DNA of 64,000 bases. Origin: Antedon mediterranea. Its lineage: Eukaryota; Echinodermata; Crinoidea; Comatulida; Antedonidae. Both the position numbers and the translations under genes were made by a program. The stretch spans positions 16,249,001 through 16,313,000 of the forward strand of contig NC_092674.1 in NCBI RefSeq assembly GCF_964355755.1. Reading direction: 5' to 3'. Positions 25,530 through 63,755 of the stretch are shown piece by piece. Each line of letters begins with the position of its first letter. Positions within the stretch are counted from its first letter, which is position 1. The notes below the pieces were generated by a model. It saw nothing but the letters and a program-made list of their open reading frames with translations, was not told where the DNA came from and did not search any database.

Positions 25530-25601
25530 AATTCGTTTAAGCTTATCAATTGTTGAAAGGTCCTATCCCTGTAAACCTGTATCTTGTTGCCTTTTAATTT
25601 T
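25530..25601 (-). CDS. LRR exon 1 (nearest the membrane domain) of the LGR-like receptor
   Basis: A 72-nt exon between TTTTTTAG and GTAAGT, phase 2-2. It encodes a 24-residue LRR with KLKGNKIQVY, then RTFQQLISLNEL, matching L-x-L-x-x-N-x-I ... F-x-x-L-x-x-L. It splices in frame to the terminal exon at 24980. It is well diverged from the distal exons, so this end of the array is old. Confidence 0.85.
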
Positions 25602-26131
25602 CTAAAAAAACAATAAATTCAAACTCAATAAGTTTGTTTTAACACTTCTTAATTCCTTCATTACTTAATATATATGCTGTACATATTAACATTTCTTATT
25701 TTAATACTGTACAGAAGGAATAATAAGTTTAGATTTGTGTGTGTGTGTGTGTGAACAACACAAATAGGTTAATGCTAAACTATCAAACTTTATGTGAAAA
25801 CCATATGGACACAATGATATCATATTACTAGCATATTCAGCACATCACACATTTTGTCCTTGTGTAGATTAGTGTTTAGTTACACATTGCACTGATTATA
25901 TAAGCATGTTCTCAGTTGCGAATCCATGATATCCGAAATGTGGAACACTATTGAATTTAGTGGTAAATCACACGCACTAATATTGTTAATAATAATTCAA
26001 TTGAGGCAGTCAAATGGGAATGTTCCCCCTGATCCTGATACAAATCAAATCAATTCAGGTCATCATAATTATGTGTTGTGGACATTCAGGAAGGCAATAT
26101 GCAAATTATATCTTACATAATGTTAACTTAC

Positions 26132-26206
26132 AAAATTAAAAGTGATGAAGCAAAAGAAGAGAATGCCTCAGGATCTATGGTAGTTATAGCGTTGTTATCT
26201 AAGTTC
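26132..26206 (-). CDS. LRR exon 2 of the LGR-like receptor
   Basis: A 75-nt exon between TTAAACAG and GTAAGT, phase 2-2, encoding NLDNNAITTI, then DPEAFSSFASSLLIL. It is one codon longer than the standard exon, with the F-to-L spacing slightly extended. Confidence 0.85.
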
Positions 26207-26640
26207 CTGTTTAAAGATAAATTAATAGACATTTAATAAATATTTGTTTATTGAAAAATATGTTTTATTTAAAAATGTTATGTCCCCTATCAAATCAGAC
26301 TTTGAATAGGCCGTTTTGTTATTTTAATAAAGTTATTCACTTCCATAGAATAAAAAAATTTAAACAATATAAAAAGACAAAGTAAATGGTTAAATTCAAC
26401 AATTTATTTTTTGCTTAATATATGTATATTTTTTTGGTCAAAGTGAACTTAAATATTTATGTGACAATTAAAAACATTGTTTTTTTAAATATTTGGACAA
26501 TGTATCTTTAAGACTATATTACGATTTAAAATGTTATACTGAGAGTAAAAAGCATTCCTGCTTGAAACTACGGTAGTTATTATACAGTAGAGGTAATGAT
26601 GAAAGAAAAGTCTATCTGGAGCTGACTACACCACAGACTC

Positions 26641-26800
26641 ATTCATTCATTCATTCTTTATTTAGCCTTTAAAATCGAAATACATTTAAAACAAGGTAAC
26701 AAAAACAAGACAGGGTGGAAATCTAAGGAGGCAAGGATAAGCAAAAGCAATTAAAATCGCTGTAGCTCGCAGGCTTGCTTATCCATCCTTAGACTAAAAA
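26641..26800 (-). mobile_element. 3' tail of an L2/CR1-like non-LTR element in a receptor intron
   Basis: (ATTC)n followed by TTTATTTAGCC reads on the minus strand as GGCTAAATAAA then (GAAT)n, the usual 3' end of L2-like elements. The 5' part is missing. Confidence 0.5.
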
Positions 26801-27532
26801 TAAAATAATTTATAGTAATTAAAATCATATAATAATATATAATTTGTTTGATTCAGTCTTATGGTAAGATTTCATTCTTTTTAAAGTCACGGAAATATCT
26901 TTAAATCAATTAATCAATTATAATTAATGTTGTTCATTCGAATTCCATTGACTGACACAGGTGTTTACTCAATGTTTGTTAGGGCAGTCCATGAAATTCA
27001 GTATTAACTGGAATAATTATATATAATAACCATAATTTAGGAAGTATTGAAAAAAATCTCCAAATGATTTCAAACATTGGTACCAGTGTTACAGCAATGT
27101 TAGGGCAGTCCATGACATCCAGTATCAACTGGAATAATTAGAATAGTTCTAAAACCTTAAATGATAAATAATACAAATTAAGTTAGTTGCAAATCATCTA
27201 TTGATTTAATATAAACACTGCATTTACTCCTTTTATTTTTGTTTGTTTTCAGTTTATAAGTTCCATTTACAGCTTTGTTGGCAACAAAAACCACTCCGCT
27301 ACTAAGTCTCAAGCTTTACTTGCCCACCCTGTAAATGTTTTGCTTTATCCTAGAGAATAGTAACCCTTTTATAGTACAAAAGTGTTATTTCAGGCAAGTC
27401 GACCAGTGGCTCCAGGTTCATCATCATAAAATAGGCATAATTTTACAAACATTTAATTGAAAGATTACACTATAAAATACATATTGTACAATGTAGTGAT
27501 TTGGGATAAATTTGTTAAGATATTATACTCAC

Positions 27533-27604
27533 AGTTCTGTCAATGCTGTCAAACCATTAAATGCATTTGCTGGCAATTTCTTTATTTGGTTATTGTCCAA
27601 CCTC
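27533..27604 (-). CDS. LRR exon 3 of the LGR-like receptor
   Basis: A 72-nt exon (TTTTAG acceptor, GTGAGT donor), phase 2-2, encoding RLDNNQIKKL and PANAFNGLTALTEL. This is a canonical 24-residue repeat that resembles the distal duplicated exons in its second half (ANAF.GLTAL). Confidence 0.9.
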
Positions 27605-28026
27605 CTAAAATAAAGAATACACAGTCAAAAGAAATTAAAATATATTTTGTACGATTTTCTTTTCCTATGACTTGTTTTAGATATGGTCCATAATACGTCA
27701 GTTGAAACCTCCTGTGGACACCACTTGTAAATGTACACCTCATAACGGATACTCACATAAAAGTCTGTGTGTCCTTTTTATTCAATATAGTGCATTGGTA
27801 AGTACCATTAGGGAAGAGTGGAATTACTTTCCCTGTTACCATCTTAAATCATCTCAAACATTTCCATAAGAGGACAGGAAAAACATTTTATTTGTATAGA
27901 TAACTTCTAAAAACTGTTTATTTTCTAAAAATAATTTTAAATACTGAAATCTATGTTACTTTACTTTAAAATAGCCTTTATGTTGGAGAATTAGACGCTA
28001 TACATTATTTGTTATAGTACAAGATT

Positions 28027-28140
28027 AAATTCATTCATTCATTCATTTTATTTGGTCCAATATAAAAATACATCAGAAATTCCTCTTATATACACTGCAG
28101 AGATAATAACAATATACGTACATGCAGAAAACAATCAATA
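28027..28140 (-). mobile_element. Second L2/CR1-like 3' tail in a receptor intron
   Basis: (ATTC)n then TTTTATTTGGTCCAATAT, i.e. ATATTGGACCAAATAAAA then (GAAT)n on the minus strand. Only the tail is present. Confidence 0.5.
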
Positions 28141-28334
28141 TAAAAAATCACTGATAAAATATCAATTCTAATTCTCCGACTGGGCAATTATCACAAAATT
28201 TAATGCAATATTGTGTTTTGTCTGATTGTGAAATCTACTTTTGACTTACTGTATAACAAAATTTAAACATGAACTCATTTTTTATGTAGTAATTCAATCA
28301 TAATTATAAAGTACATATCAATAAAAATACTCAC

Positions 28335-28406
28335 AGCAATGTCAATGCAGTTAAACCAAAAAATGCATTTGCTGGCAATGTGCTTATCTTGAAATCTCTC
28401 AACCAC
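28335..28406 (-). CDS. LRR exon 4 of the LGR-like receptor
   Basis: A 72-nt exon, phase 2-2, GTGAGT donor. It encodes WLRDFKISTL then PANAFFGLTALTLL. The usual Asn of L-x-x-N is replaced (RDFKI), so this repeat lacks the asparagine-ladder residue while the rest is conserved. Confidence 0.85.
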
Positions 28407-28819
28407 CTTCAAGATAAAACAATTTAGTATTAACCAAGTAGCAGACCATGTATTAAGAAATATACCTGTATAGACTCTACATATGCCATTATTCCCAATA
28501 TGGACACCCCTCGAAAGGAAAATGGAATAGTCCAGGCGCCGTAGCGGGCCGTACAAACGTCTCTCACGCATGACATCGTCCTCATATTCCGAGATCCACG
28601 TGATCACGGCGAGGGGAGGCGGGAGGGATTGCTATACAGTTAGGTATCTCACTTATAGACACCACTGTTGGTTTGTGTAATCATATACCATCTTGTAAGT
28701 GGCCATGTTTTTTTGTTGGTTTTAGTTTGGAACAAAATTTTTTCAAAAACTTTCTAAAATTTAGTTTTATTTGAAATTTCTAGAAAGTTTGTAGGAATTC
28801 AGAGTAAAAAAATACTCAC

Positions 28820-28897
28820 AGTTGTGGCAGTGATGTCAACCCATTAAATGCATAGGCTTCCAGTGTACTAATTTGATTAGTTTCCACCCATTCAGGA
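28820..28897 (-). CDS. LRR exon 5 of the LGR-like receptor (78 nt)
   Basis: It runs from a TTCTTTAG acceptor to a GTGAGT donor, phase 2-2, encoding PEWVETNQISTL then EAYAFNGLTSLPQL. Two codons longer than the standard exon, giving a 26-residue repeat with the extra length before N-Q-I. Confidence 0.8.
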
Positions 28898-29775: not shown

Positions 29776-29783
29776 CTTCAAAG

Positions 29784-31244: not shown

Positions 31245-31316
31245 AGTGTTTTCAATGCTGTCAAACCAGCAAATACATTGGCTTGTAATGTACTTATTTG
31301 GTTATAGTACAAATCC
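31245..31316 (-). CDS. LRR exon 6 of the LGR-like receptor (distal type)
   Basis: A 72-nt exon, phase 2-2, GTAAGT donor. It encodes DLYYNQISTLQAN then VFAGLTALKTL. It is the first of the near-identical distal type and is separated from the next one (56622) by the 24.2-kb mobile-element nest. Confidence 0.92.
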
Positions 31317-32007: not shown

Positions 32008-33569
32008 GGTTATCCGCAACGAAGTTGCAGGATAACCTCTTGTGATTGTACGAAATCAACCTGTATGATTTTTGTGTAACGCTTTTCTCTAAAACTCGCA
32101 AACATAACATTTCGGTAACTATCTTAACATATTGACATTTACGTAACGTCGTCAAGCGAAGCTTTTCATGACGTTTACAATTGCGCAACGTGACTTACGC
32201 GCGATTTAACGATTTTGTCGTATTTAACATAGCTCGACAACCAAATAACATTTCAACTTGAAACTTTGCAAAAGTTTAATTTATATCATGCGCTAACTTT
32301 CTGTTGAAAAAAAATTGCGTGTTTTACACAAAGTTACGCGCGCACGCGCATTTAAAATTTCAAAATGCGCAAAATTAATTTATAATCAACTTTCTACGAG
32401 TTTCATGTCGTTTTAAGCATGTCAAAAATTCCCACGCGTGCGCACATTTTTACGTGTGCGGTGCGCACGTAGTATTGAAAACGTACTTTTTTCACGTGAT
32501 TTATATTTTTCCAGCCTTTTCTAGTAATTTTACCAAATTTTAAACAATTTCGACTTAAAGATACGTCATACGAGCACGTCGAATTGGACAATTTGCGCGC
32601 GTTTTTTATGAAAAGGTTAAAAAATTCGTTTAAAATATGCCTTTTTTTAAACAGTCGTAATTTCTAAACTAGACGGTCAACTTTTTGTGGATGGCATATT
32701 CTGGAAGTAGATGAGTTGTAGATATCGGATCAGGTATTAATATGGCTAACCGGACATTGTGACGTCATCGTATGGCCACGCGAATATAAAATTTAGGATT
32801 TTTGTATCTTTCGTCATAGCTCATCACATTGAATAGAGCGCATCTCCACTTATCCGTTTTCCATTTTCACCCCGATTTTGATTTTGTCTAGGTCAATCAA
32901 GTATCTTTCGCATGAGTTAAAAATATTTTAATTTTTTTGACGTCATCATGCCTAAAAATTTTAATCACGTGTGGCATCAATTTCATCTTTACAGTAAATT
33001 TTAATCTGTTATAGCTCGTAAGAATAAAACTTGATAATCACGATTAAAACTTTTTCTGGAAGCTATTGGATTGTAGATACGAAATTATGTAAAAATGTTG
33101 CCAATCGGATGTTGTGACGTCATCATATGGCCAGTTAAATAAAAAAGGTCGTATTTTCATCTTTTGCGTCATAATTCATTACATTTAAAAGAGCGCGCAT
33201 CAATATTTCACGTATTCAAATTTCTTCTACACGCTAATACGTTGTTGCTGAGATAATTTCCTTTCGGAATTGCTAACTTCGCGTTTCATTTTAAAACCGT
33301 CAACATGTTAAAAATTGTAATAAATAGCGGGTCCCGTAATTTCACCTATTCTACACTGTATGTGATATGGATACAGATTATACTGTGTATACTATATATG
33401 AATTTAAATAATAAAATTCAGCAATAACAACAGATCATATTCTTCAGTTCAGTTCATAATGCCAACGTGAACACTTCCTTTTGTCCTCAACCTATCCCCT
33501 TAATGTTAATGTTGCACCACTTGCGCGGCGGATAACCAAACTCGTCAAAGTGACGAGTTACATGTCTAG
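32008..33569 (+). mobile_element. Helitron-like element type 1, uninterrupted copy
   Basis: The 5' hairpin has arms GGTTATCC and GGATAACC around a second stem GCAAC-GAA-GTTGC. The 3' end reads GCGGATAACC (the 5' arm inverted), hairpin ACTCGTCAAAGTGACGAGT, TACATGTCTAG. 1562 bp. The ~60-residue open frames in it recur in every copy with substitutions and have no domain, so the element is non-autonomous. It has CTRR-like 3' termini and a 3' hairpin as in Helitrons, but the 5' end is not TC. Confidence 0.85.
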
Positions 33570-33571
33570 TT

Positions 33572-33716
33572 GGTTATCCGCAACGAAGTTGCAGGATAAC
33601 CTCTTGTGATTGTACGAAATCATTGGTTATCCGCAACGAAGTTGCAGGATAACCTCTTGTGATTGTACGAAATCATCATCATCATCATCATCATCAACTT
33701 TTTATTGGTTATCCGC
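33572..33716 (+). mobile_element. Two orphan 5' ends of type 1 elements
   Basis: 5' hairpin modules start at 33572 and 33625 (the second followed by an ATC microsatellite). When the nest is unpacked, every 3' end downstream pairs with another 5' end, leaving these two without bodies. Confidence 0.65.
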
Positions 33717-33973
33717 AACGAAGTTGCAGGATAACCTCTTGTGATTGTACGAAATCATCATCATCATCATCATCATCAACTTTTTGGTTATCCGCAACGA
33801 AGTTGCAGGATAACCTCTTGTGATTGTACGAAATCATCATCATTGGTTATCCGCAACGAAGTTGCAGGATAACCTCTTGTGATTGTACGAAATCATTGGT
33901 TATCCGCAACGAAGTTGCAGGATAACCTCTTGTGATTGTACGAAATCATCATCATCATCATCAACTTTTTATT

Positions 33974-36900
33974 AGGTGATCATTTAGAATAAAATGATCA
34001 CCTATTGTTATTGTATGAAATCTTTATTCTTCTTATTCTTATTATTTATTTCTCTCTGTACAGATTTTGTGTAACAAATATCTCAAAAAGTTTAATGTTA
34101 ATGATTACCAAAATTTCACAATGTCTTTCAAATACGTTAACTTAGTCCTAATAAGCTTTTCAGCGTGATCACTCATCCGTGACGTCACGTATACGCCATT
34201 TTGTGAAATCACATTATCAATCATATCTCCATAATTCATTATCGCATATTAATGAAAATCACTACACGTAAACTTGAGGTCAAGATAAAAAATATTAGCA
34301 AATAAAAACTCGGGCGTTTCAAGGTCATGCGCGTGAAATCGCCCGTTGAAATTTTAAAAAGCTCAAAATTTAGTTTTTATCAATTTAGAGCATGAAATAG
34401 GCCATTTGCGTGTTTCAAAAAATTACTGCGTAAAAACACATTTTTGCGCACGCGATTTTTAAAAAGGGTAAAAAATAAAATTTGATGTATACATCATATT
34501 CTACTCACAATCCTTAGTACATTCTCCGACTTTGAGTCCATTCCGACTTAAAATAACGCTATACGAGCACGTTAAAAATGACAAAATGCGCACATTAATT
34601 GTACAAAAGTGCTAAAAATGGTAAAAAATAAGGCCTTTTTAAAATGAATATAACTCTTCAGAATGGCAGGTGACCCCCAATTTTTTTAACTTATTATGGA
34701 AGCCAATAAGTTGTAGATATAAATATATATACATATTAGACGTACAAAATGGTATGACGTCATCAAATGGCCACTTGAATTTAAAAATTAGTAATTTTTA
34801 TCTTTTTGTGTGGGTTATCACATTCAATAGAGCGCATCTCCGTTATTTGAGCCCGATTTTCGCACACATTTTAGTATGTGCTTGCTCAATTAATTATCTT
34901 TCTCGTGAGTTGTGAACATTTTTATTGTGATGACGTCATCACGCGTAAAAACTTGAATAACCTAGGTCGTGTAATTTCAGCTACACCATACATTTGAATA
35001 TCTTATAGCTCCTTAGAATTAAAGGTGACCTTGAAGATTATAATTTATTATGAAAGCTGATGAAATGTAGATATGAATTCATATTAAAATTAAGCCTATC
35101 GGATGCTGTGATGTTATCATATGACCAGTTGAAGTTAAAAAGTAGTTTTTAAATTTCTTTAGTCGAAGTTATAAAAATTTCAAAGACCGCGCATTGCGCT
35201 TCTACGTGTCAAATTTTCTTCCAATCCTTATATTTATTTGCTCAATTCATTATCTTTCGAAATTGTCATCTTCGAGTTTATTTTGAAAATTCCATCATAC
35301 CAAAAAATTAGAACACGATATGAGTCCCGTAATTTCACCTATGCTACACTGTATATAGATATACAGTATATACTGTACATATTGTATGACACATAGGTAG
35401 AACTCAGCACTATAAGTGTATATGCAATCATGTCATAGGATGGCGTACATCAACTTTTAACGATCGTATGTTAACGTACATGCATATTTAAAAAATGTTA
35501 ATTTTATTAAAATGATAAAAATGATCACCTATAATTCGTCAAAGTGACGAATTAAATTGGTTATCCGCAACGAAGTTGCAGGATAACCTCTTGTGATTGT
35601 ACGAAATCATCATCATCATCATCATCAACTTTTTATTCTTCTTCTTTCTTTCTGTATGATTTTTGTGTAACGCTTTTCTCTAAAACTCGCAAACATAACA
35701 TTTTGTTAACTATGTTAACATTTTGACATTTATGTAACGTCGTCAAGCGAAGCTTTTCATGATGTTTACAATTGCGCAACGTGACGTACGCGCGATTTAA
35801 CGATTTTATCGTATTTAACATATGTCGAAAACCAAATAACATTTTAAAGTGAAACTTTTCAAAAGTTTAATTTATATCATGCGCTAAATTTCTGTTGAAA
35901 AAAAATTGCGTGTTTTACACAAAGTTACGCGCGCACGCACATTTAAAATTTCAAAATGCGCAAAATTAATTTATAATCAACTTTCTACGCGTTTCATGTC
36001 GTTTTAAGCATGTCAAAAATTCCCACGCGTGCGCACATTTCTACGTGTGCGATGCGCACGTAGCATTGAAAACGTATTTTTTTCGCGTGATTTATGTTTT
36101 TCCAGCCTTTTCTAGTAATTTTACCAAATTTTAAACAATTTCGACTTAAAGATACGTCATACGAGCACGTCGAATTGGACAATTTGCGCGCGTTTTTTAT
36201 AAAAAGGTTAAAAAATTCGTTTAAAATATGCCTTTTTTTAAACAGTCGTAATTTCTAAACTAGACGGTCAAATTTTTGTGGATGACATATTCTGGAAGTA
36301 GATGAGTTGTAGATATCGGATCAGGTATTAATATGGCTAACCGGACATTGTGACGTCATCGTATGGCCACGCGAATATAAAATTTAGTATTTTTATATCT
36401 TTCGTCATAGCTCATCACATTGAATAGAGCGCATCTCCACTTATCCGTTTTCCATTTTCACCCCGATTTTGATATTGTCTAGGTCAATCAACTATCTTTC
36501 GCATGAGTTAAAAATATTTTAATTTTTTTGACGTCATCATGCCTAAAAATTTAAATCACGTGTGGCATCAATTTCATCTTTACAGTAAATTTTAATCTGT
36601 TATAGCTCGTAAGAATAAAATGTGATAATCACGATTAAAACTTTTTCTGGAAGCTATTGGATTGTAGATATGAAATTATGTAAAAATGTTGCCAATCGGA
36701 TGTTGTGACGTCATCATATGGCCAGTTAAATAAAAAAGGTCGTATTTTCATCTTTTTCGTCATAATTCATTACATTTAAAAGAGCGCGCATCAATATTTA
36801 ACGTATTCAAATTTCTTCTACACGCTAATACGTTGTTGCTGAGATAATTTGCTTTCGGAATTGCTAACTTCGCTTTTCATTTTAAAACCATCAACATCTT

Positions 36901-37176
36901 AAAAATTGCAATAAATAGCAGGTCCCGTAATTTCACCTATTCTACACTGTATGTCACTGTATGTGATATGGATACAGAATATACTGTGTATACTATATAT
37001 GAATTTAAATAATAAAATTCAGCAATAACAACATATCATATTCTTCAGTTCAGATCATAATGCCAACGTGAACACTTCCTTTTGTCCTCAACCTATCCCC
37101 TTAATGTTAATGTTGCACCACTTGCGCGGCGGATAACCAAACTCGTCAAAGTGACGAGTTACATGTCTAGTTCTAG
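33974..37176 (+). mobile_element. Type 2 element, interrupted six bases before its end
   Basis: Own segments 33974-35557 and 37171-37176 (TTCTAG). It has the same 5' hairpin as the outer type 2 element. A type 1 element landed in its terminal AAATTCTAG, and the missing TTCTAG is found exactly behind the intruder's CTAG, which proves the nesting. Confidence 0.88.
35558..37170 (+). mobile_element. Type 1 element inserted in the terminus of the type 2 element
   Basis: An uninterrupted ~1.61-kb copy with hairpin GGTTATCC/GGATAACC at 35559 and CTAG at 37167-37170. A short duplication of TCACTGTATG is present near 36953-36965. The flanks show net addition of T...CTAGT at a T-T step. Confidence 0.88.
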
Positions 37177-40100
37177 TTCTTCTTCTTTCTTTCTGTATGA
37201 TTTTTGTGTAACGCTTTTCTCTAAAACTCGCAAACATAACATTTCGGTAACTATCTTAACATATTGACATTTACGTAACGTCGTCAAGCGAAGCTTTTCA
37301 TGACGTTTACAATTGCGCAACGTGACTTACGCGCGATTTAACGATTTTGTCGTATTTAACATAGCTCGACAACCATATAACATTTCAACTTGAAAATTTG
37401 CAAAAGTTTAATTTATATCATGCGCTAACTTTCTGTTGAAAAAAAATTGCGTGTTTTACACAAAGTTACGCGCGCACGCGCATTTAAAATTTCAAAATGC
37501 GCAAAATTAATTTATAATCATTTTTCTACGCGTTTCATGTCGTTTTAAGCATGTCAAAAATTCCCACGCGTGCGCACATTTCTACGTGTGCGGTGCGCAC
37601 GTAGCATTGAAAACGTATTTTTTTCGCGTGATTTATGTTTTTCCAGCCTTTTCTAGTAAATTTACCAAATTTTAAACAACTTCGACTTAAAGATACGTCA
37701 TACGAGCACGTCGAATTGGACAATTTGCGCGCGTTTTTTATGAAAAGGTTAAAAAATTCGTTTAAAATATGCCTTTTTTTAAACAGTCGTAATTTCTAAA
37801 CTAGACGGTCAAATTTTTGTGGATGACATATTCTGGAAGTAGATGAGTTGTAGATATCGGATCAGGTATTAATATGGCTAACCGGACATTTTGACGTCAT
37901 CGTATGGCCACGCGAATATAAAATTTAGGATTTTTGTATCTTTCGTCATAGCTCATCACATTGAATAGAGCGCATCTCCACTTATCCGTTTTCCATTTTC
38001 ACCCCGATTTTGACATTGTCTAGGTCAATCAACTATCTTTCGCATGAGTTAAAAATATTTAAATTTTTTTGACGTCATCATGCCTAAAAATTAAAATCAC
38101 CTGTGGCAGTAATTTCATCTTTACAGTAAATTTTAATCTGTTATAGCTCGTAAGAATAAAATGTGATAATCAAGATTAAAACTTTTTCTGGAAGCTATTG
38201 GATTGTAGATACGAAATTATGTAAAAATGTTGCCAATCGGATGTTGTGACGTCATCATATGGCCAGTTAAATAAAAAAGGTCGTATTTTCATCTTTTGCG
38301 TCATAATTCATTACATTTAAAAGAGCGCGCATCAATATTTCACGTATTCAAATTTCTTCTACACGTTAATACGTTGTTGCTGAGATAATTTGCTTTCGGA
38401 ATTGCTACCTTCGCGTTTCATTTTAAAACCGTCAACATGTTAAAAATTGCAATAAATAGCGGGTCCCGTAATTTCACCTATTCTACACTGTATGTGATAT
38501 GGATACAGATTATACTGTGTATACTATATATGGATTTAAATAATAAAATTCAGTAATAACAACATATCATATTCTTCAGTTCAGGTCATAATGCCAACGT
38601 GAACACTTCCTTTTGTCCTCAACCTATCCCCTTAATGTTAATGTTTCACCACTTGCGCGGCGGATAACCAAACTCGTCAAAGTGACGAGTTACATGTCTA
38701 GTCATCTTTTTATTTTTCTTCTTTCTTTCTGTATGATTTTTGTGTAACGCTTTTCTCTAAAACTCGCAAACATAACATTTCGGTAACTATCTTAACATAT
38801 TGACATTTACGTAACGTCGTCAAGCGAAGCTTTTCATGATGTTTGCAATTGCGCAACGTGACGTACGCGCGATTTAACGATTTTCTCGTATTTAACATAT
38901 GTTGAAAACCAAATAACATTTCAACTTGAAACTTCGCAAAAGTTTAATTTATATCATGCGCTAACTTTATGTTGAAAAAAAATTGCGTGTTTTACACAAA
39001 GTTACGCGCGCACGCGCATTTAAAATTTCAAAATGCGCAAAATTAATTTATAATCAACTTTCTACGCGTTTCTGGTCGTTTTAAGCATGTCAAAAATTCC
39101 CACGCGTGCGCACATTTTTACGTGTGCGGTACGCACGTAGCATTGAAAACGTATTTTTTTCGCGTGATTTATGTTTTTCCAGCCTTTTCTAGTAATTTTA
39201 CCAAATTTTAAACAATTTCAACTTAAAGATACGTCATACGAGTACGTCGAATTGGACAATTTGCGCGCGTTTTTTATGAAAAGGTTAAAAAATTCGTTTA
39301 AAATATGCCTTTTTTTAAACAGTCGTAATTTCTAAACTAGACGGTCAATTTTTTGTGGATGACATATTCTGGAAGTAGATGAGTGGTAGATATCGGATCA
39401 GGTATTGATATGGCTAACCGGACATTGTGACGTCATCGTATGGCCACGCAAATATAAAATTTAGGATTTTTGTATCTTTCGTCATAGCTCATCACATTGA
39501 ATAGAGCGTATCTCCACTTATCCGTTTTCCATTTTCACCCCGATTTTGATATTGTCTAGGTCAATCAACTATCTTTCGCATGAGTTAAAAATATTTTAAT
39601 TTTTTTTACGTCATCGTGCTTAAAAATTTAAATCACGTGTGGCATTAATTTCATCTTTACAGTAAATTTTAATCTGTTATAGCTCGTAAGAATAAAATGT
39701 GATAATCACGATTAAAACTTTTTCTGGAAGCTATTGAATTTTAGATACGAAATTATGTAAAAATGTTGCCAATCGGATGTTGTGACGTCATCATATGGCC
39801 AGTTATATAAAAAAGGTCGTATTTTCATCTTTTGCGTCATAATTCATTACATTTAAACGAGCGCGCATCAATATTTCCCGTATTCAAATTTCTTCTACAC
39901 GCTAATACGTTGTTGCTGAGATAATTTCCTTTCGGAATTGCTACCTTCGCGTTTCATTTTAAAACCGTCAACATGTTAAAAATTGCAATAAATAGCGGGT
40001 CCCGTAATTTCACCTATTCTATGTATGTCACTGTATGTGATATGGATACAGATTATACTGTGTATACTATATATGAATTTAAATAATAAAATTCAGCAAC

Positions 40101-40246
40101 ATATCATATTCTTCAGTTCAGGTCATAATGCCAACATGAACACTTCCTTTTGTCCTCAACCTATCCCCTTAATGTTAATGTTGCACCACTTGCGCGGCGG
40201 ATAACCAAACTCGTCAAAGTGACGAGTTACATGTCTAGTCTTTTTT

Positions 40247-46490: not shown

Positions 46491-46535
46491 GGTTATCCGC
46501 AACGAAGTTGCAGGATAACCTCTTGTGATTGTACG

Positions 46536-46568
<33 letters not shown>

Positions 46569-46631
46569 ACTTTTTATTGGTTATCCGCAACGAAGTTGCA
46601 GGATAACCTCTTGTGATTGTACGAAATCATT
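46491..46631 (+). mobile_element. Two orphan 5' ends of type 1 elements
   Basis: 5' hairpin modules at 46491 (long ATC run) and 46579. The 46579 copy may also own 51404-51419 (CATCTTTTTATTTT), but no 3' end remains for either in the nest. Confidence 0.6.
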
Positions 46632-46701
46632 GGTTATCCGCAACGAAGTTGCAGGATAACCTCTTGTGATTGTACGAAATCATCATCAACATCTTTTTAT
46701 T

Positions 46702-49700
46702 GGTTATCCGCAACGAAGTTGCAGGATAACCTCTTGTGATTGTACGAAATCATCATCAACATCAACTTTTTATTAGTTATCCGCTTAGTAGCGGATAACT
46801 CCTTGTGATTGTAGTGGATCAATATTTTTTTTTTTTTTCTGTATTCTTCTTATTTCTTTCCCATTTTTTTGTGAATCACGTTTCTCTAAAATGTGTAAAC
46901 ATAACATTTTATAACTTTGACAACATGTGGGCATTTACGTGAAGTTGTGCATCTCCTATTTTGAATGACGTCAGAGTTGCGCAACGTGACTTGCGCGCGA
47001 TTTTATGATTTTTAATGATTGATCATAGCTTTAAAACCAAGAGTAATTTTTTTTTTACCCTTTATGAAAATTTAAGTCATATCAAGGGCAAATTGTTAGT
47101 ACACTAAAAATGGCATGTTTTACAAAAAGTTACGCGTGCACGCGCATTTAAAATTTCAAAATGCGCAAAATTAATTTCTAATCAACTTTCTACGCGTTTC
47201 ATGTCATTTTAAGCATGTAAAAAATTCCCACGCGTGCGCACATTTTTGCGTGTGCGGTGCGCACGTAGCATTAAAAACATATTTTTTTCGAGTGATTTAT
47301 GTTTTTCCAGCCTTTTATAGTACTTTTACCAACTTTTAAACACTTTCGACTTAAAGTTACGTCATACAAGCACGTCGAATTGGACAATTTGCGCACGTTT
47401 TTGATGAAAAAGTACAAAAATTTGTCAAAATTATGCCTTTTTTTAAACAGTCGTAATTTCTAAACTAAACGGTCAACTTTTTGTGGATGGCATATTCTGG
47501 AAGTAGATGAGTTGTAGATATCGAATCATGTATTAATATGGCTAACCGGACATTGTGACGTCATCGTATGGCCACGCGAATATAAAATTTAGGATTTTTG
47601 TATCTTTCGTCATAGCTCATCACATTTAATAGAGCGCATCTCCAGTTATCCGTTTTCCATTTTCACTTCGATTTTGATATTGTCTAGGACAATCAACTAT
47701 CTTTCGCACGAGTTAAAAAATTTTTATTTTTTATGACGTCATCATGCCTAAAACTTTTAATTACGTGTGGCATTAATTTCATCTTTACAGTAAATTTTAA
47801 TCTGTTATAGCTCGTAAGAGTAAAATGTGATAATTACGATTAAAACGTTTTCTGGAAGCTATTGGATTGTAGATACGAAATCATGTGAAAATGTTGCCAA
47901 TCGGTTGTTGTGACGTCATCATATGGCCAGTTAAATAAAAAAAGTCGTATTTTCATCTTTTACGTCATAATGCATTACATTTAAAAAAGCGCGCATCAAT
48001 ATTTCACGTATTCAAATTTCTTCTACACGTTAATATGTTGTTGCTGAGATAATTTCCTTCCGAAATTGCTACATTTGCGTTTCATTTTGAAACCGTCAAC
48101 ATGTTAAAAATTTCAATAAATAGCGGGTCCCGTAATTTCACCTATTCTACACTGTATGTAATATGTATACAGATTATACTGTGTATACTATATGACAGAA
48201 AATTGACAGAATTCAGCACCAACAACATATCATATTCTTCAGTTCATGTCATAATGCCATAATCTTTTTCTGTGTGCCATATACCAACGTATGACGTGCA
48301 CGTGGCGTTTGTCGTGCGGATAACTAACTCGTCAAAGTGACGAGTTACATGTCTAGTTTCTCTTCTTTCTTTCTGTATGATTTTTGTGGAACGCTTTTCT
48401 CGAAAACTTGCAAACATAACATTTTGTAACTTTCTCAACATATCGTCATGCACATGAAGATGTGCAGCGAAGCTTTTCATGATATTTACAATTGCGCAAC
48501 GTGACCTACGCGCGATTTAACGATTTTGTCGTATTTAACATAGCTCGACAACCAAATAACATTTCAACTTGAAACTTTGCAAAAGTTTAATTTATATCAT
48601 GCGCTAACTTTCTGTTGAAAAAAAATTGCGTGTTTTACACAAAGTTACGCGCGCACGCGCATATAAAATTTCAAAATGCGCAAAATTAATTTATAATCAA
48701 CTTTCTACGCGTTTCATGTCGTTTTAAGCATGTCAAAAATTCCCACGCGTGCGCACATTTTTACGTGTGCGGTGCGCACGTAGCATTGAAAACGTATTTT
48801 TTTCGCGTGATTTATGTTGTTCCAGCTTTTTCAAGTAATTTTACCAAATTTTAAACAATTTCGACTTAAAGATACGTCATACGAGCACGTCGAATTGGAC
48901 AATTGGCGCGCGTTTTTTATGAAAAGGTTAAAAAATTCGTTTAAAATATGCCTTTTTTTAAACAGTCGTAATTTCTAAACTAGACGGTCAACTTTTTGTG
49001 GATGGCATATTCTGGAAGTAGATGAGTTGTAGATATCGAATCAGGTAGTAATATGGCTAACTGGACATTGTGACGTCATTGTATGGCCACACGAATATAA
49101 AATTTAGGATTTTTGTATCTTTCGTCATAGCTCATCACATTGAATAGAGCGCATCTCCACTTATCCGTTTTCCATTTTCACCCCGATTTTGATATTGTCT
49201 AGGTCAATCAAGTATCTTTCGCATGAGTTAAAAATATTTTAATTTTTTTGACGTCATCATGCCTAAAAATTTAAATCACGTGTGGCATTAATTTCATCTT
49301 TACAGTAAATTTTAATCTGTTATAGCTCGTAAGAATAAAATGTGATAATCACGATTAAAACTTTTTCTGGAAGCTATTGGATTGTAGATACGAAATTATG
49401 TAAAAATGTTGCCAATCGGATGTTGTGACGTCATCATATGGCTAGTTAAACAAAAAAGGTCGTATTTTCATCTTTTGCGTCATAATTCATTACATTTAAA
49501 AGAGTGCGCATCAATATTTCACGTATTCAAATTTCTTCTACACGCTAATACGTTGTTGCTGAGATAATTTCCTTTCGGAATTGCTACCTTCGCGTTTCAT
49601 TTTAAAACCGTCAACATGTTAAAAATTGCAATAAATAGCGGGTCCCGTAATTTCACCTATTCTACACTGTATGTGATATGGATACAGATACTGTGTATAC

Positions 49701-49877
49701 TATATATGAATTTAAATAATAAAATTCAGCATTAACAACATATCATATTCTTCAGTTCAGGTCATAATGCCAACGTGAACACTTCCTTTTGTCCTCAACC
49801 TATCCTCTTAATGTTTATGTTGCACCACTTGCGCGGCGGATAACCAAACTCGTCAAATTGACGAGTTACATGTCTAG
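46702..49877 (+). mobile_element. Type 1 element split by a type 3 insertion (copy f)
   Basis: Own segments 46702-46774 and 48357-49877, about 1.59 kb in all. It is nearly identical to copy e, into which it is inserted. Confidence 0.7.
46775..48356 (+). mobile_element. Helitron-like element type 3, copy 3
   Basis: The same AGTTATCCGC-TTAGTA-GCGGATAACT hairpin as copy 2; ends GCGGATAACT, hairpin, TACATGTCTAG. 1582 bp. Inserted into copy f. Confidence 0.85.
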
Positions 49878-51419
49878 TTTCTCTTCTTTCTTTCTGTATG
49901 ATTTTTGTGGAACGCTTTTCTCGAAAACTTGCAAACATAACATTTTGTAACTTTCTCAACATATCGTCATGCACATGAAGATGTGCAGCGAAGCTTTTCA
50001 TGATATTTACAATTGCGCAACGTGACCTACGCGCGATTTAACGATTTTGTCGTATTTAACATAGCTCGACAACCAAATAACATTTCAACTTGAAACTTTG
50101 CAAAAGTTTAATTTATATCATGCGCTAACTTTCTGTTGAAAAAAAATTGCGTGTTTTACACAAAGTTACGCGCGCACGCGCATATAAAATTTCAAAATGC
50201 GCAAAATTAATTTATAATCAACTTTCTACGCGTTTCATGTCGTTTTAAGCATGTCAAAAATTCCCACGCGTGCGCACATTTTTACGTGTGCGGTGCGCAC
50301 GTAGCATTGAAAACGTATTTTTTTCGCGTGATTTATGTTGTTCCAGCTTTTTCAAGTAATTTTACCAAATTTTAAACAATTTCGACTTAAAGATACGTCA
50401 TACGAGCACGTCGAATTGGACAATTGGCGCGCGTTTTTTATGAAAAGGTTAAAAAATTCGTTTAAAATATGCCTTTTTTTAAACAGTCGTAATTTCTAAA
50501 CTAGACGGTCAACTTTTTGTGGATGGCATATTCTGGAAGTAGATGAGTTGTAGATATCGAATCAGGTAGTAATATGGCTAACTGGACATTGTGACGTTAT
50601 CGTATGGCCACACGAATATAAAATTTAGGATTTTTGTATCTTTCGTCATAGCTCATCAGATTGAATAGAGCGCATCTCCACTTATCCGTTTTCCATTTTC
50701 ACCCCGATTTTGATATTGTCTAGGTCAATCAAGTATCTTTCGCATGAGTTAAAAATATTTTAATTTTTTTGACGTCATCATGCCTAAAAATTTAAATCAC
50801 GTGTGGCATTAATTTCATCTTTACAGTAAATTTTAATCTGTTATAGCTCGTAAGAATAAAATGTGATAATCACGATTAAAACTTTTTCTGGAAGCTATTG
50901 GATTGTAGATACGAAATTATGTAAAAATGTTGCCAATCGGATGTTGTGACGTCATCATATGGCTAGTTAAACAAAAAAGGTCGTATTTTCATCTTTTGCG
51001 TCATAATTCATTACATTTAAAAGAGTGCGCATCAATATTTCACGTATTCAAATTTCTTCTACACGCTAATACGTTGTTGCTGAGATAATTTCCTTTCGGA
51101 ATTGCTACCTTCGCGTTTCATTTTAAAACCGTCAACATGTTATAAATTGCAATAAATAGCGGGTCCCGTAATTTCACCTATTCTACACTGTATGTGTGAT
51201 ATGGATACAGATTATACTGTGTATACTATATATGAATTTAAATAATAAAATTCAGCAATAACAACATATCATATTCTTCAGTTCAGGTCATAATGCCAAC
51301 GTGAACACTTCCTTTTGTCCTCAACCTATCCCCTTAATGTTAATGTTGCACCACTTGCGCGGCGGATAACCAAACTCGTCAAAGTGACGAGTTACATGTC
51401 TAGTCATCTTTTTATTTTT

Positions 51420-54400
51420 GGTTATCCGCAACGAAGTTGCAGGATAACCTCTTGTGATTGTACGAAATCATCATCATCATTGGTTATCCGCAACGAAGTT
51501 GCAGGATAACCTCTTGTGATTGTACGAAATCATCATCATCTTTTTCTTAATCTTCTTTCTTTCTGTATGATTTTTGTGTAACGCTTTTCTCTAAAACTTG
51601 CAAACATAACATTTTGTTAACCATGTTAACATTTTGACATTTATGTAACGTCGTCAAGCGAAGCTTTTCATGATGTTTACAATTGCGCAACGTGACGTAC
51701 GCGCGATTTAACGATTTTCTCGTATTTAACATATGTCGAAAACCAAATAACATTTTAAAGTGAAACTTTGCAAAAGTTTAATTTATATCATGCGCTAACT
51801 TTCTGTTGAAAAAAAATTGCGTGTTTTACACAAAGTTACGCGCGCACGCGCATTTAAAATTTCAAAATGCGCAAAATTAATTTATAATCAACTTTCTACG
51901 CGTTTCATGTCGTTTTAAGCATGTCAAAAATTCCCACGCGTGCGCACATTTCTACGTGTGCGGTGCGCACGTAGCATTGAAAACGTATTTTTTTCGCGTG
52001 ATTTATGTTTTTCCAGCCTTTTCTAGTAATTTTACCAAATTTTAAACAATTTCGACTTAAAGATACGTCATACGAGCACGTCAAATTGGACAATTTGCGC
52101 GCGTTTTTTATGAAAAGGTTAAAAAATTCGTTTAAAATATGCCTTTTTTTAAACAGTCGTAATTTCTAAACTAGACGGTCAAATTTTTGTGGATGACATA
52201 TTCTGGAAGTAGATGAGTTTTAGATATCGGATCAGGTATTAATATGGCTAACCGGACATTGTGACGTCATCGTATGGCCACGCGAATATAAAATTTAGGA
52301 TTTTTGTATCTTTCGTCATAGCTCATCACATTGAATAGAGCGCATCTCCACTTATCCGTTTTCCATTTTCACCCCGATTTTGATATTGTCTAGGTCAATC
52401 AACTATCTTTTGCATGAGTTAAAAATATTTTAATTTTTTTGACGTCATCATGCCTAAAAATTTAAATCACGTATGGCATCAATTTCATCTTTACAGTAAA
52501 TTTTAATCTGTTACAGCTCGTAAGAATAAAGTGTGATAATCACGATTAAAACTTTTTCTGGAAGCTATTGGATTGTAGATACGAAATTATGTAAAAATGT
52601 TGCCAATCGGATGTTGTGACGTCATCATATGGCCAGTTAAATAAAAAAGGTCGTATTTTCATCTTTTGCGTCATAATTCATTACATTTAAACGAGCGCGC
52701 ATCAATATTTCACGTATTCAAATTTCTTCTACACGCTAATACGTTGTTGCTGAGATAATTTCCTTTCGGAATTGCTACCTTCGCGTTTAATTTTAAAACC
52801 GTCAACATGTTAAAAATTGCAATAAATGGCGGGTCCCGTAATTTCACCTATTCTATGTATGTCACTGTATGTGATATGGATACAGATTATACTGTGTATA
52901 CTATATATGAATTTAAATAATAAAATTCAGCAATAACAACAGATCATATTCTTCAGTTCAGGTCATAATGCCAACGTGAACACTTCCTTTTGTCCTCAAC
53001 CTATCCCCTTAATGTTAATGTTGCACCACTTGCGCGGCGGATAACCAAACTCGTCAAAGTGACGAGTTACATGTCTAGTCATCTTTTTCTTAATCTTCTT
53101 TCTTTCTGTATGATTTTTGTGTAACGCTTTTCTCTAAAACTTGCAAACATAACATTTTGTTAACTATGTTAACATTTTGACATTTATGTAACGTCGTCAA
53201 GCGAAGCTTTTCATGATGTTTACAATCGCGCAACGTGACGTACGCGCGATTTAACGATTTTCTCGTATTTAACATATGTCGAAAACCAAATAACATTTTA
53301 AAGTGAAACTTTGCAAAAGTTTAATTTATATCATGCGCTAACCTTCTGTTGAAAAAAAATTGCGTGTTTTACACAAAGTTACGCGCGCACGCGCATTTAA
53401 AATTTTAAAATGCGCAAAATTAATTTCTAATCAACTTTCTACGCGTTTCATGTCGGTTTAAGCATGTCAAAAATTCCCACGCATGCGCACATTTTTACGT
53501 GTGCGGAGCACACGTAGCATTGAAAACGTATTTTTTTCGCGTGATTTATGTTTTTTCAGCCTTTTCTAGTAATTTTACCAAATTTTAAACAATTTTGACT
53601 TAAAGATACGTCATACGAGCACGTCGAATTGGCCAATTTGCGCGCGTTTTTTATGAAAAGGTTAAAAAATTCGTTTAAAATATGACTTTTTTTAAACAGT
53701 CGTAATTTCTAAACTAGACGGTCAAATTTTTGTGGATGACATTTTCTAGAAGTAGATGAGTTGTAGATATCGGATCAGGTATTAATATGGCTAACCGGAC
53801 ATTGTGACGTCATCGTATGGCCACGCGAATATAAAATTTAGGATTTTTGTATCTTTCGTCATAGCTCATCACATTGAATAGAGCGCATCTCCACTTATCC
53901 GTTTTTCATTTTCACCCCGATTTTGATATTGTCTAGGTCAATCAACTATCTTTCGCATAAGTTAAAAATATTATAATTTTTTTGACGTCATCATGCCTAA
54001 AAATTTAAATCACGTGTGGCATCAATTTCATCTTTACAGTAAATTTTAATCTGTTATAGCTCGTAAGAATAAAATTTGATAATCACGATTAAAACTTTTT
54101 CTGGAAGCTATTGGATTGTAGATACGAAATTATGTAAAAATGTTGCCAATCGGATGTTGTGACGTCATCATATGGCCAGTTAAATAAAAAAGGTCGTATT
54201 TTCATCTTTTGCGTCATAATTCATTACATTTAAAAGAGCGCGCATCAATATTTCACGTATTCAAATTTCTTCTACACGCTAATACGTTGTTGCTGAGATA
54301 ATTTCCTTTCGGAATTGCTACCTTCCCGTTTCATTTTAAAACCGTCAACATGTTAAAAATTGCAATAAATAGCGGGTCCCGTAAGTTCACATATTCTACA

Positions 54401-56621: not shown

Positions 56622-56693
56622 AGTGTTTCCAATGCTGTCAAACCAGCAAATACATTGGCTTGTAATGTACTTATTTGGTTACTGTACAAATCC
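56622..56693 (-). CDS. LRR exon 7 of the LGR-like receptor
   Basis: 72 nt, phase 2-2, GTAAGT donor. It reads DLYSNQISTLQAN then VFAGLTALETL and matches exon 12 (61382) at the protein level. Confidence 0.92.
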
Positions 56694-57456: not shown

Positions 57457-57528
57457 AGTGTTTCCAATGCTGTCAAACCAGCAAATGCATTGGCTTGTAA
57501 TGTACTTATTTGGTTATACCTCAAATTC
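57457..57528 (-). CDS. LRR exon 8 of the LGR-like receptor
   Basis: 72 nt, phase 2-2. It reads NLRYNQISTLQAN then AFAGLTALETL. It differs from exon 10 only at Gln/Pro in STL(Q/P)AN. Confidence 0.92.
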
Positions 57529-58652: not shown

Positions 58653-58724
58653 AGTGTTTCCAATGCTGTCAAACCAGCAAATACATTGGCTTGTAATGTA
58701 CTTATTTGGTTACCGTACAAATAC
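58653..58724 (-). CDS. LRR exon 9 of the LGR-like receptor
   Basis: 72 nt, phase 2-2. It reads YLYGNQISTLQAN then VFAGLTALETL. Confidence 0.92.
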
Positions 58725-59480: not shown

Positions 59481-59552
59481 AGTGTTTCCAATGCTGTCAA
59501 ACCAGCAAATGCATTGGCTGGTAATGTACTTATTTGGTTATACCTCAAATTC
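59481..59552 (-). CDS. LRR exon 10 of the LGR-like receptor
   Basis: 72 nt, phase 2-2. It reads NLRYNQISTLPAN then AFAGLTALETL, the same protein as exon 15 (63684). Confidence 0.92.
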
Positions 59553-60114: not shown

Positions 60115-60138
60115 TTGTAATTTAAGCAATACACTTAC

Positions 60139-60210
60139 AGTGTTTCTAATGCTGTCAAACCAGCAAATGCATTGGCTTGTAATGTACTTATTTGGTTACC
60201 GTACAAATAC
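60139..60210 (-). CDS. LRR exon 11 of the LGR-like receptor
   Basis: 72 nt, phase 2-2. It reads YLYGNQISTLQAN then AFAGLTALETL, the same protein as exon 13 (62036). Its donor lies close to the truncated TTAA element. Confidence 0.92.
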
Positions 60211-61381: not shown

Positions 61382-61453
61382 AGTGTTTCCAATGCTGTCA
61401 AACCAGCAAATACATTGGCTTGTAATGTACTTATTTGGTTACTGTACAAATCC
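61382..61453 (-). CDS. LRR exon 12 of the LGR-like receptor
   Basis: 72 nt, phase 2-2. Same protein as exon 7 (DLYSNQISTLQAN, VFAGLTALETL), indicating a recent duplication or conversion. Confidence 0.92.
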
Positions 61454-61634
61454 CTTAAAAGTAAAAAGAATGCACAGTATAAGTAAATCACAATATCCAA
61501 GCTGTTTTAAAATTATTTTAGTTTTTCTGTCACCTCAAATGTTGAAATGTCTACATTCCTGTACATTATACAGTAGTTATACTGCATGTACTCTATTGTA
61601 TGTACTTTAGTTATGTCAAAATATATTATGTTAA

Positions 61635-62010
61635 AGCTCAGGTACAGTCATGAATTTTAAATATAATATTTGGTTAATTGTACATAAATCAAATATTTGT
61701 AACAGAAATCGAGACGAAAAAACAAGAATTTCCCTTAATATGGTCAAATACAAAATTTGGCAAAATTCTTCCATAAAAACCAGGAAGACTTTTTTTCAGT
61801 AGTTAGGTAGTTAACCTAATGTAATAACATGACTCCCTAGACGGTGAAAAAAGATGGTGGATATATGGATAATTTTTGCTATAGCAAGAAAATAAAAATC
61901 TGAAGTTGAATAAAAATATCAGAAATGTAATATTCAAGTTATATTACCTATATTTAGTCATCCGAAAAAATTTTTTTACCACACTGTTTATTTTTCATAG
62001 CTTTTTAAAA
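61635..62010 (-). mobile_element. Second truncated TTAA-family element inside a receptor intron
   Basis: Truncated at the same place as 59734-60114 and nearly identical to it, so the insertion and truncation predate duplication of this cassette. Confidence 0.75.
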
Positions 62011-62035
62011 TTTGTAATTTAAGCAATACACTTAC

Positions 62036-62107
62036 AGTGTTTCTAATGCTGTCAAACCAGCAAATGCATTGGCTTGTAATGTACTTATTTGGTTACCGTA
62101 CAAATAC
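62036..62107 (-). CDS. LRR exon 13 of the LGR-like receptor
   Basis: 72 nt, phase 2-2. Same protein as exon 11 (YLYGNQISTLQAN, AFAGLTALETL). Confidence 0.92.
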
Positions 62108-62944
62108 CTTAAAAGTAAAAAGAATGCATAGTATAAGTAAATCACAATATCCAAGCTGTTTTAAAATTATTTTAGTTTTTCTGTCACCTCAAATGTTGAA
62201 ATGTCTACATTCCTGTACATTATACAGTAGTTATACTGCATTTACTCTATTGTATGTACTTTAGTGATGTCAAAATATATTATGTTAAAATAAAAATGTG
62301 GTAGATATATTTAAATTCACATTTTTGAATTGTTATATTTTACAACAATAAATAATTCAATCATGGTAGATAAATAAAAAAAATTTCTAAATTAAAACCA
62401 AATAAATAAACTGATTGAAACAACATAAAATTACTCTAAACCATCAGCTGTAGTTCAACATTAACAACTGCACCCCCCCCCCCCCTCTGGTCACTATTAT
62501 CATGGACCTTTAAATTAGCATGAATCTATATAAATTCTTTCTTTCTTTGGTTGCAGAATATTTGTTGTATCAATCAACTTATGTTAAACCGATTAAATTT
62601 CAATTATTATCATACAAAATTAAATAATTCAATCATGATGGATACATTTTAAAAATGTTGATTTTAAAATAATTTTTTTTTGCTATACATACAAATATAA
62701 AATATATATTTATATTTTAATAATTTTTTTTCTCATAAGACAAAATTAATACATAAACAAATACTAATTATTTAGTAACATTTGTTATAATGATATTTAT
62801 ATTGTGACATTTACAATAAAAATTTATTTTGAAATATTATTATTTAAAAAAATAAAGTTCATTCATGGTGGATGAGCAAAAAACTATTAATTACTAAATT
62901 AAACCAAATTGGTAAAACTAAGCAAACATAAGCAATACACTTAC

Positions 62945-63016
62945 AGTGTTTCCAATGCTATCAAACCAACAAATGCATTGGCTGGTAATGTACTTATTTT
63001 GTTATTGTCCAAATCC
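62945..63016 (-). CDS. LRR exon 14 of the LGR-like receptor
   Basis: 72 nt, phase 2-2. It reads DLDNNKISTLPAN then AFVGLIALETL, the most diverged of the distal exons, nearest in its first half to exon 3. Its intron to the left is shortened compared with the other cassettes. Confidence 0.92.
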
Positions 63017-63683
63017 CTTAAAAGTAAAAAGAATGCACAATATACAGTAGTTATACTGCATGTACTCTATTGTATGTACTTTAGTTATGTCAAAATATAT
63101 TATGTTAAAATAAAAATGTGGTAAATATATTTAAATTCACATTTTTGAATTGTTTTACAACAATAAATAATTCAATCATAGTAGATAAATAAAAAAAAAT
63201 GTTGATTTTAAAATTCTTTTTACTGTAAATAATTAAATTATGGAATCATAATGTACACATTAGTCCATTATTACAATTGAACCTACAATGCATGCATTGT
63301 ATTGTATCAATATTTTATGGAAAAATATACAATATATATGTAAATTTTAATAGTTTTTATTCTCATAAGACAAAATTATTACATAAATAAATATTAATTA
63401 TTTAGTAACATTCATTATAATGATATTTATATTGCAAATATTTAAAATCAAAGATAAATTTTGAATTATTATATATTACAGAAAAAATAAAGTTCATTCA
63501 TGGTGGATGAACTATGAGACTAGTGATTTTTAAAGATATTTTTATAAGATCACAAATTGTGAAATTATGTAAACATTTTAATCCATTATCATTGTTTAAC
63601 CAACAAAGTAAAATAATTTTATATTTAATTTCTATATTTAAACCAAATTGGTAAAAGTAAGCAAACATAAGCAATACACTTAC

Positions 63684-63755
63684 AGTGTTTCCAATGCTGT
63701 CAAACCAGCAAATGCATTGGCTGGTAATGTACTTATTTGGTTATACCTCAAATTC
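63684..63755 (-). CDS. LRR exon 15 of the LGR-like receptor (gene continues beyond the window)
   Basis: 72 nt, phase 2-2. It reads NLRYNQISTLPAN then AFAGLTALETL, the same protein as exon 10. It is preceded by a normal acceptor, so at least one more upstream exon must lie past 64000. Confidence 0.92.

Follow-up and report, generated by a model that had tools for sequence, protein, structure and literature searches.

The window analysed here is a stretch of 64,000 nucleotides from the crinoid Antedon mediterranea (C5:16249001-16313000, C5 being its contig in G000, an assembly of 354 Mb and 18 contigs), and it covers most of R1, a receptor gene on the minus strand. R1 probably belongs to a large, recently expanded and germline-diversified family of G-protein-coupled receptors (GPCRs) of the LGR type, which would evolve by the gain and loss of exons encoding leucine-rich repeats (LRRs) and by diversifying selection; a probability of about two in three is assigned to this reading. 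Three concave positions of the array repeats (x5, x7 and x8) evolve as under intense diversifying selection, and the LRR scaffold is conserved. All splice sites and gene models given below are predictions from the DNA sequence of one assembly.

In detail, 15 LRR exons of R1 lie inside the window, all with an AG acceptor, a GT donor and phase 2-2. Their length is exactly 72 nt in 13 cases, 75 nt in one and 78 nt in one (table 1). An earlier note on this DNA had claimed at least 15 one-LRR exons with these borders and phases, twelve or more of them of exactly 72 nt, and its counts, phases and coordinates hold. Its description of the exons as modular and interchangeable without loss of frame is borne out by their shared phase. 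The same applies to the nine distal exons and exon 31316-31245, which it had described as differing at few surface positions: they are near-identical, with differences chiefly at residues 1, 3 and 4, plus a P/Q and an A/V alternation. The last exon, with the LRR C-flank and the seven-helix (7TM) domain, ends in a stop codon and matches Pfam 7tm_1 (5e-31). Beyond the end of the window, R1 continues with four near-identical LRR exons, which lie between C5:16316274 and 16313678, followed by an LRR N-cap exon (C5:16318145-16317995, GCPASCTC...) and, at C5:16320216-16320141, by a signal-peptide-like exon, whose start codon and signal character were judged by eye. A scan for further small exons upstream found none. 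When joined, the 22 exons read as a single open frame, 875 codons long and closed by a stop, and the predicted product consists of 19 LRRs, the N-cap, the C-flank and the 7TM. The standard LRR pattern misses these exons because the exon borders cut the motif. Among 111 exon-like copies in the window and in the DNA around the sampled genes (59-nt body, at most 14 mismatches), 106 are intact, with an open frame, an AG acceptor and a GT donor, and thus the exon series exceeds chance.

R2, the tandem neighbour of R1 (7TM at C5:16220368), has 15 exons which join into 702 codons, and this spliced model, a single frame of 702 aa, matches Pfam LRR_8 (3.8e-80) and 7tm_1 (2.9e-31). In their 5′ flanks, R1 and R2 share 98.8% identity across 7.3 kb and 98.9% across another 6.5 kb; their 3′ ends share 99.4% across 5.8 kb. 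Core exons are defined by a length of 72 nt and a shared tttaag acceptor and gtaagt donor (once gtgtat); R1 has 14 and R2 has 7. The variable ectodomain length proposed by the earlier note is therefore found between close paralogues. Block duplications within the arrays are seen by self-comparison. By default, every exon of an array is read as spliced in.

The genome search with the 7TM gave 113 matches, of which 67 (that of R1 included) are near-full-length, that is, with at least 300 of 353 residues aligned at 42% identity or more, as counted by hand. They are spread over 11 contigs, and nine (again with R1) are at least 97% identical. The view that the expansion is young also stands. In the respective search with one LRR exon, the best 150 of 283 candidates were scored and all 150 pass E 0.1, so that genome exon numbers are lower bounds. 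From the 67 genes, ten on C5, C7 and C9 were sampled, their exons being found by similarity to the window exons (score of at least 30), an approach that can miss diverged copies. R6, a repeat of R5 with unchanged spacing at a distance of 119 kb, was excluded from the sample. The sample holds 84 core exons: 14 in R1, 7 in R2, 10 in R3, 14 in R4, 5 in R5, 6 in R7, 11 in R8, 1 in R9, 7 in R10 and 9 in R11. Both gene ends were traced in R1 and R2 only, and the core counts of the other eight are lower bounds; the sequence analysed covers R4, R5, R7 and R8 except for a middle stretch, and R11 except for its 7TM end. R9 and R4 each contain one additional copy in which a splice site has been lost. Five further arrays (L026-L030) likewise contain 72-nt LRR exons.

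In terms of the LxxLxLxxN strand, exon residues 1, 3 and 4 are x5, x7 and x8, and x2 and x3 are exon residues 22 and 23; their concave placement is deduced from the LxxLxLxx motif. Over the 84 core exons, entropy reaches 2.26, 2.34 and 2.83 bits at x5, x7 and x8, respectively, followed by position 11 (P/Q, 1.08), x3 (1.04), x2 (0.97) and position 14 (A/V, 0.86), with the other 16 at 0.69 or below. Only 3 out of 33,649 five-codon sets have an entropy as high as x2, x3, x5, x7 and x8. The residues found at x5, x7 and x8 are chiefly Y, S, D, N, G, R and W. In plant NLRs, variable positions of the LxxLxLxx motif line the concave surface, and clades that repeatedly exceed 1.5 bits are called highly variable (PMC8226289; this and the other papers cited are used as far as their available text goes).

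The ratio of nonsynonymous to synonymous diversity (pN/pS, from uncorrected counts) at x5, x7 and x8 is 0.504/0.066 = 7.7. Comparison with the intron flanks leads in the same direction. For eight exon pairs with 250-nt flanks of 98-99% identity, divergence is 1.45% in the flanks and 3.0% in the exon body, and reaches 37.5% at the first two bases of x5, x7 and x8, with different concave residues in all eight. Concave residues differ in none of 7 pairs with flanks at least 99.8% identical, in 2 of 4 at 99.0-99.8% and in 11 of 17 at 97-98% (30% divergence). The 7TM exons of nine genes show a pN/pS of 0.22, and among R1 and R2 (C5) and R3 (C7) pS is 0. As a control, the 36 non-core LRR exons of 72 nt in the ten genes, mostly near the 7TM, were paired by flanks alone: in this small sample (25 pairs) divergence is 3.5% in the flanks and 3.3% at the first two concave bases, and concave amino acids differ in 7 pairs. 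The identical pairing of core exons (935 pairs) gives 4.9% and 54.4%, with differences in 906. Accordingly, the outer repeats change, whereas the repeats close to the membrane and the signalling half stay conserved. The earlier note saw one gene out of these dozens; the strongest evidence, concave codons set against flanks, 7TM and proximal exons, emerges when the genes are compared with one another.

Two codons beside the variable positions are nearly invariant: the Leu codon between them is TTG in 81 of the 84 core exons, and the next Asn codon is AAC in 82. A pyrimidine is the last base of 220 variable codons, and in none of these is it a pyrimidine other than the usual one of its position, while bases 1 and 2 vary freely. 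This is what amino-acid selection at low neutral divergence predicts. As a separate observation on the same codons, His is found at none of the 252 variable codons, and C is the first base in one; against this scarcity, Tyr codons would be expected to undergo T-to-C changes often. The concave pattern recurs in three of five other sub-families, namely C8 (pN/pS 0.45/0.00, 4 unique exons), C7b (0.55/0.12, 5) and C10 (0.54/0.03, 10). These fast-changing positions on the binding face suggest receptors rapidly evolving toward many shifting targets.

Several points weigh against this reading. Two of the five sub-families do not follow: C7c is equivocal (pN 0.27, pS 0.20; 5 unique exons), and C1 (L029) is without an excess of concave amino-acid changes (pN 0.37, pS 0.72; 6 unique exons). 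The other 18 codons of the core exons also exceed 1 (0.044/0.012 = 3.7, falling to 1.8 when positions 11 and 14 are left out). The cause is an unusually low synonymous diversity within the exon, lower than the diversity of the 30 nt upstream (0.076), which makes the flank comparison the safer test of selection. The bootstrap range of 5.2-12.5 for the concave ratio, obtained on unique exons, is optimistic, since exons and exon pairs are not independent (shared members, duplication, shared ancestry and conversion). In 22 of the 67 near-full-length 7TMs there is a stop in the aligned stretch, mostly a single one, which may be the natural end. Moreover, the support comes from genes predicted in a single assembly, and an immune role, which appears the most likely purpose, is argued by analogy.

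As regards the origin of new binding faces, the nearest relative by intron flank lies in the same gene for 42 of the 84 core exons and in another gene for the remainder, where shared ancestry of duplicated genes or exchange may be responsible. In 19 out of 21 recent pairs (flanks at least 97% identical, different cassettes), one or both cassettes also occur beside unrelated flanks; when all pairs that differ in cassette are taken, the background is 2397 out of 3426. Counted per exon, this holds for 16 of 23 exons versus 22 of 61 others (Fisher p = 0.007, the exons not being independent). Such sharing fits short exchanges between exons without being proof of them, and point mutation with selection could produce it as well. 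The transfer of whole cassettes was rejected as a full explanation, as linkage among the seven variable positions (21 pairs) is weak: against 500 shuffles it is strongest for x7-x8 (2/500), followed by x5-x8 (13), x7-p14 (18), x5-x7 (28) and x8-x2 (30). The movement of exons between chromosomes was also dropped, since the cross-contig pair concerned, R2/R3 (flanks 98.8% identical), consists of the first core exon listed for each gene, and gene duplication may be enough to explain it. Unequal exchange within and between arrays would add, remove and reorder exons; the three concave residues would be refreshed by selection and point mutation, possibly aided by short exchanges from exon to exon. 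Each gene would thereby display a different binding face on a shared signalling unit.

With extracellular LRRs and a rhodopsin-type 7TM in one frame in the R2 model, and the same layout in R1, the genes have the domain composition of LGRs. The best match of the 7TM in the PDB is RXFP1 (relaxin receptor 1, 1.5e-47), followed by LHCGR, FSHR and TSHR (the LH, FSH and TSH receptors), in line with the earlier designation of R1 as LGR-like. The best beta-2 adrenergic entry scores 1.6e-15; the 7TM thus lies nearer to LGRs than to the remaining class A receptors, although LGR4 itself reaches only 3.8e-13. An LDLa module at the N terminus is the mark of LGR type C, the relaxin type (PMC11863921), and the snail receptor GRL101 of type C2 combines tandem LDLa repeats with LRRs (PMC2396169). 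No LDLa was found in the spliced R2 model or in three 5′ reading frames of R1, a search that short additional 5′ exons could escape. Some RXFP/LGR3 genes (type C1) have phase-1 introns in TM2 and TM5, and some LGR4-type genes a phase-0 intron after TM7 (PMC11863921); in R1 the whole 7TM is one exon, inside which the frame reaches its stop. By their predicted domains the genes are therefore LGRs, but they are not filed as relaxin receptors, because the gene-structure marks of some RXFP/LGR3 and LGR4 genes are absent and no LDLa was found.

The family may well serve to recognise varied and shifting non-self ligands, microbial or allogeneic, and to signal through a G protein. The next choice, clearly less probable, is that these LGRs read environmental chemicals or fast-evolving peptides as chemosensory or peptide-hormone receptors. 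Peptide-hormone LGRs are usually few and conserved, and small molecules are rarely ligands of LRRs. The 7TM is indeed closest to relaxin and glycoprotein-hormone receptors, and the LGR GRL101 is differentially expressed in sensory organs of a starfish (PMC6267866). On the contrary, the crinoid genes number dozens of copies, which have 7TMs that are similar or in part nearly identical, and which diverge at the concave LRR residues. A different ectodomain for each cell or individual, produced by alternative splicing or by somatic rearrangement within the arrays as proposed for ROCO genes of brown algae, is rather unlikely. Phase 2-2 throughout the arrays would keep any subset of exons in frame, and splice variants with different LRR sets occur in brown-algal ROCO genes (PMC11378527); however, the acceptor and donor hexamers of the core exons, the only splicing signals looked at, are nearly uniform, and genomic R1 and R2 are already complete open frames.

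An artefact of the assembly, in which uncollapsed haplotypes or misjoined repeats imitate arrays, is very improbable: the region is highly repetitive and known from a single assembly, but copies lie on several contigs with varying spacing and sequence, and R1 and R2, whose 5′ ends were followed, both show a single 5′ end, a single 3′ end and an unbroken frame. Slightly less probable still is a targeted mutator, template-driven or regional, acting on x5-L6-x7-x8 with selection merely filtering. Divergence in this stretch is about 25 times that of the flanks, and the variable codons are mostly NNT, NNC and NNT with a fixed third base, a pattern which recalls adenine-targeted diversification in bacteria. 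Such a mutator would have to spare the Leu codon inside the stretch (TTG in 81/84) and the Asn codon (AAC in 82/84), and 32 of the 252 variable codons have a purine as third base; selection, perhaps with exchange between exons, accounts for the pattern (cassettes, 16/23 vs 22/61). Neutral concerted evolution, by which young duplicated exons would drift without function, is disfavoured and the least probable of all. The arrays are young and block-duplicated, as it expects; yet 106 of 111 copies keep their frames and splice sites, variation is focused on exposed concave codons, the 7TM has a pN/pS of 0.22, and none of the 220 pyrimidine-ending variable codons uses the alternative pyrimidine.

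Among published systems, the closest parallel to the diversifying LGR family is that of the brown-algal LRR-ROCO genes of Ectocarpus and Saccharina, which have 72-bp phase-2 LRR exons, exon shuffling, splice variants and four concave sites under positive selection (PMC11378527). One LRR per 72-bp phase-2 exon, tandem arrays and selected concave sites are common to both, as far as the algal account describes them. The algal ROCO proteins are GTPases with ROC-COR domains, whereas the crinoid genes encode seven-helix GPCRs with a signal-like peptide, in an animal; the R2 model has no Pfam match to ROC-COR. The LRR genes of Tetrahymena are young, with 90-bp exons in tandem, an extreme phase-2 bias, 1-50 exons in most genes and evidence of ectopic recombination (PMC6564038). 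They resemble the crinoid genes in their arrays of one-size phase-2 LRR exons and differ in exon length and in belonging to a ciliate; the available text of that paper mentions no 7TM, and the term "positive selection" is absent from its main text (PMC6564038).

With the variable lymphocyte receptors (VLRs) of lampreys, the crinoid receptors share an LRR solenoid, an LRR N-cap and the concentration of variable residues on the concave face. VLRs are not GPCRs, and they are assembled from an incomplete germline gene; R1 and R2, on the contrary, are complete open frames in the germline. The diversity of VLRs is produced by a process resembling gene conversion (PMC3900441, also for the shared features). 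The LGR/relaxin family (types A, B, C1 and C2) has the same combination of LRR ectodomain and rhodopsin-type 7TM, the crinoid 7TM being closest to RXFP1; compared with its published description, the crinoid genes differ in having no LDLa found, a one-exon 7TM, near-identical repeats and dozens of paralogues (PMC11863921). In the snail Biomphalaria sudanica, the SudRes2 region holds 12 paralogous GRL101-like LRR-GPCR genes and is associated with schistosome resistance, the causal gene not being known (PMC12297450). It is likewise a cluster of paralogous LRR-GPCR genes in an invertebrate, but most of its genes carry C-type lectin and LDL domains, and a near-identical 72-nt array is unmentioned in the text available (PMC12297450). 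The LDLRR-GPCR/LGR-like genes of Ciona also form a lineage-specific expansion with a relaxin-receptor-like 7TM, and the 14 LDLRR-GPCR members differ in having LDL-A repeats and no LRRs (PMC2396169). Among the papers listed, none describes, by its title or the opening of its abstract, arrays of near-identical 72-nt LRR exons in a GPCR of an animal; the search covered the subscription literature in part and is not proof of absence. To the extent of these sources, 72-nt phase-2 LRR arrays with selected concave sites are known from brown algae; in the crinoid their carrier is an animal GPCR.

Table 1. Predicted exons of R1 and the intronic repeat within the window (positions counted from the first nucleotide of the window).
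Feature	Positions	Strand	Basis
Terminal exon, holding both the LRR C-flank and the whole seven-helix domain; ends in a stop	23957..24980	-	Pfam, frame joining
Proximal LRR exon, 72 nt (KLKGNK...)	25530..25601	-	
Proximal LRR exon, 75 nt (NLDNNA...)	26132..26206	-	
Proximal LRR exon, 72 nt (RLDNNQI...)	27533..27604	-	
Proximal LRR exon, 72 nt (WLRDFKI...)	28335..28406	-	
LRR exon, 78 nt (PEWVETNQI...)	28820..28897	-	
Core LRR exon, concave residues D-Y-Y	31245..31316	-	
Tandem repeat of ~1.5 kb, 13 copies, intronic; dispersed genomic repeat, not receptor sequence	32111..54133	.	
Core LRR exon, D-Y-S	56622..56693	-	
Core LRR exon, N-R-Y	57457..57528	-	
Core LRR exon, Y-Y-G	58653..58724	-	
Core LRR exon, N-R-Y	59481..59552	-	
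Core LRR exon, Y-Y-G	60139..60210	-	
Core LRR exon, D-Y-S	61382..61453	-	
Core LRR exon, Y-Y-G	62036..62107	-	
Core LRR exon, D-D-N	62945..63016	-	
Core LRR exon, N-R-Y; last core exon before the window end	63684..63755	-	

The tandem array of the ~1.5-kb unit (32.1-54.1 kb, segments 66-99% identical) separates exon 31316 from the distal exons. Similar tandem copies of the unit are found on C1, C2, C3, C8 and C9 at 95-98% identity. This array was rejected as a source of extra LRR exons, since scans of the minus strand found none in it and the unit is tandem elsewhere. Between the signal-like and N-cap exons there is an SRCR-like scrap (L001:5656-5486, minus strand; GMSVHDCGHDEDASVICQC), which was rejected as an extra receptor domain, as it has no Pfam match. 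Upstream of the receptor, L002:9998-9126 (minus strand) holds an unbroken frame of 291 codons, with no Pfam family above the cut-off. In the window itself, positions 9640-10684 contain short-period repeats open on both strands, probably a minisatellite. An open frame at 20230-19841 (minus strand) resembles, by eye, the end of a reverse transcriptase and is likely the remnant of a retroelement.

If the reading of a diversifying LGR family is true, the crinoid would possess a GPCR family whose germline arrays and selection on the binding face parallel those of plant NLRs, VLRs and algal ROCO genes. A combinatorial use of the arrays, by splicing or exchange, is a speculative and rather improbable extension, by which cells or individuals would carry different faces with a common G-protein output, an anticipatory repertoire in animal GPCRs; if so, it would be an independently arisen counterpart of VLRs and of the brown-algal ROCO receptors. 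Similar arrays are worth seeking in the genomes of other animals, since exons of 72 nt may be collapsed or overlooked by automatic annotation. With an LRR array that can be swapped on a conserved 7TM, ligand specificity lends itself to direct tests by means of chimeras in cultured cells.

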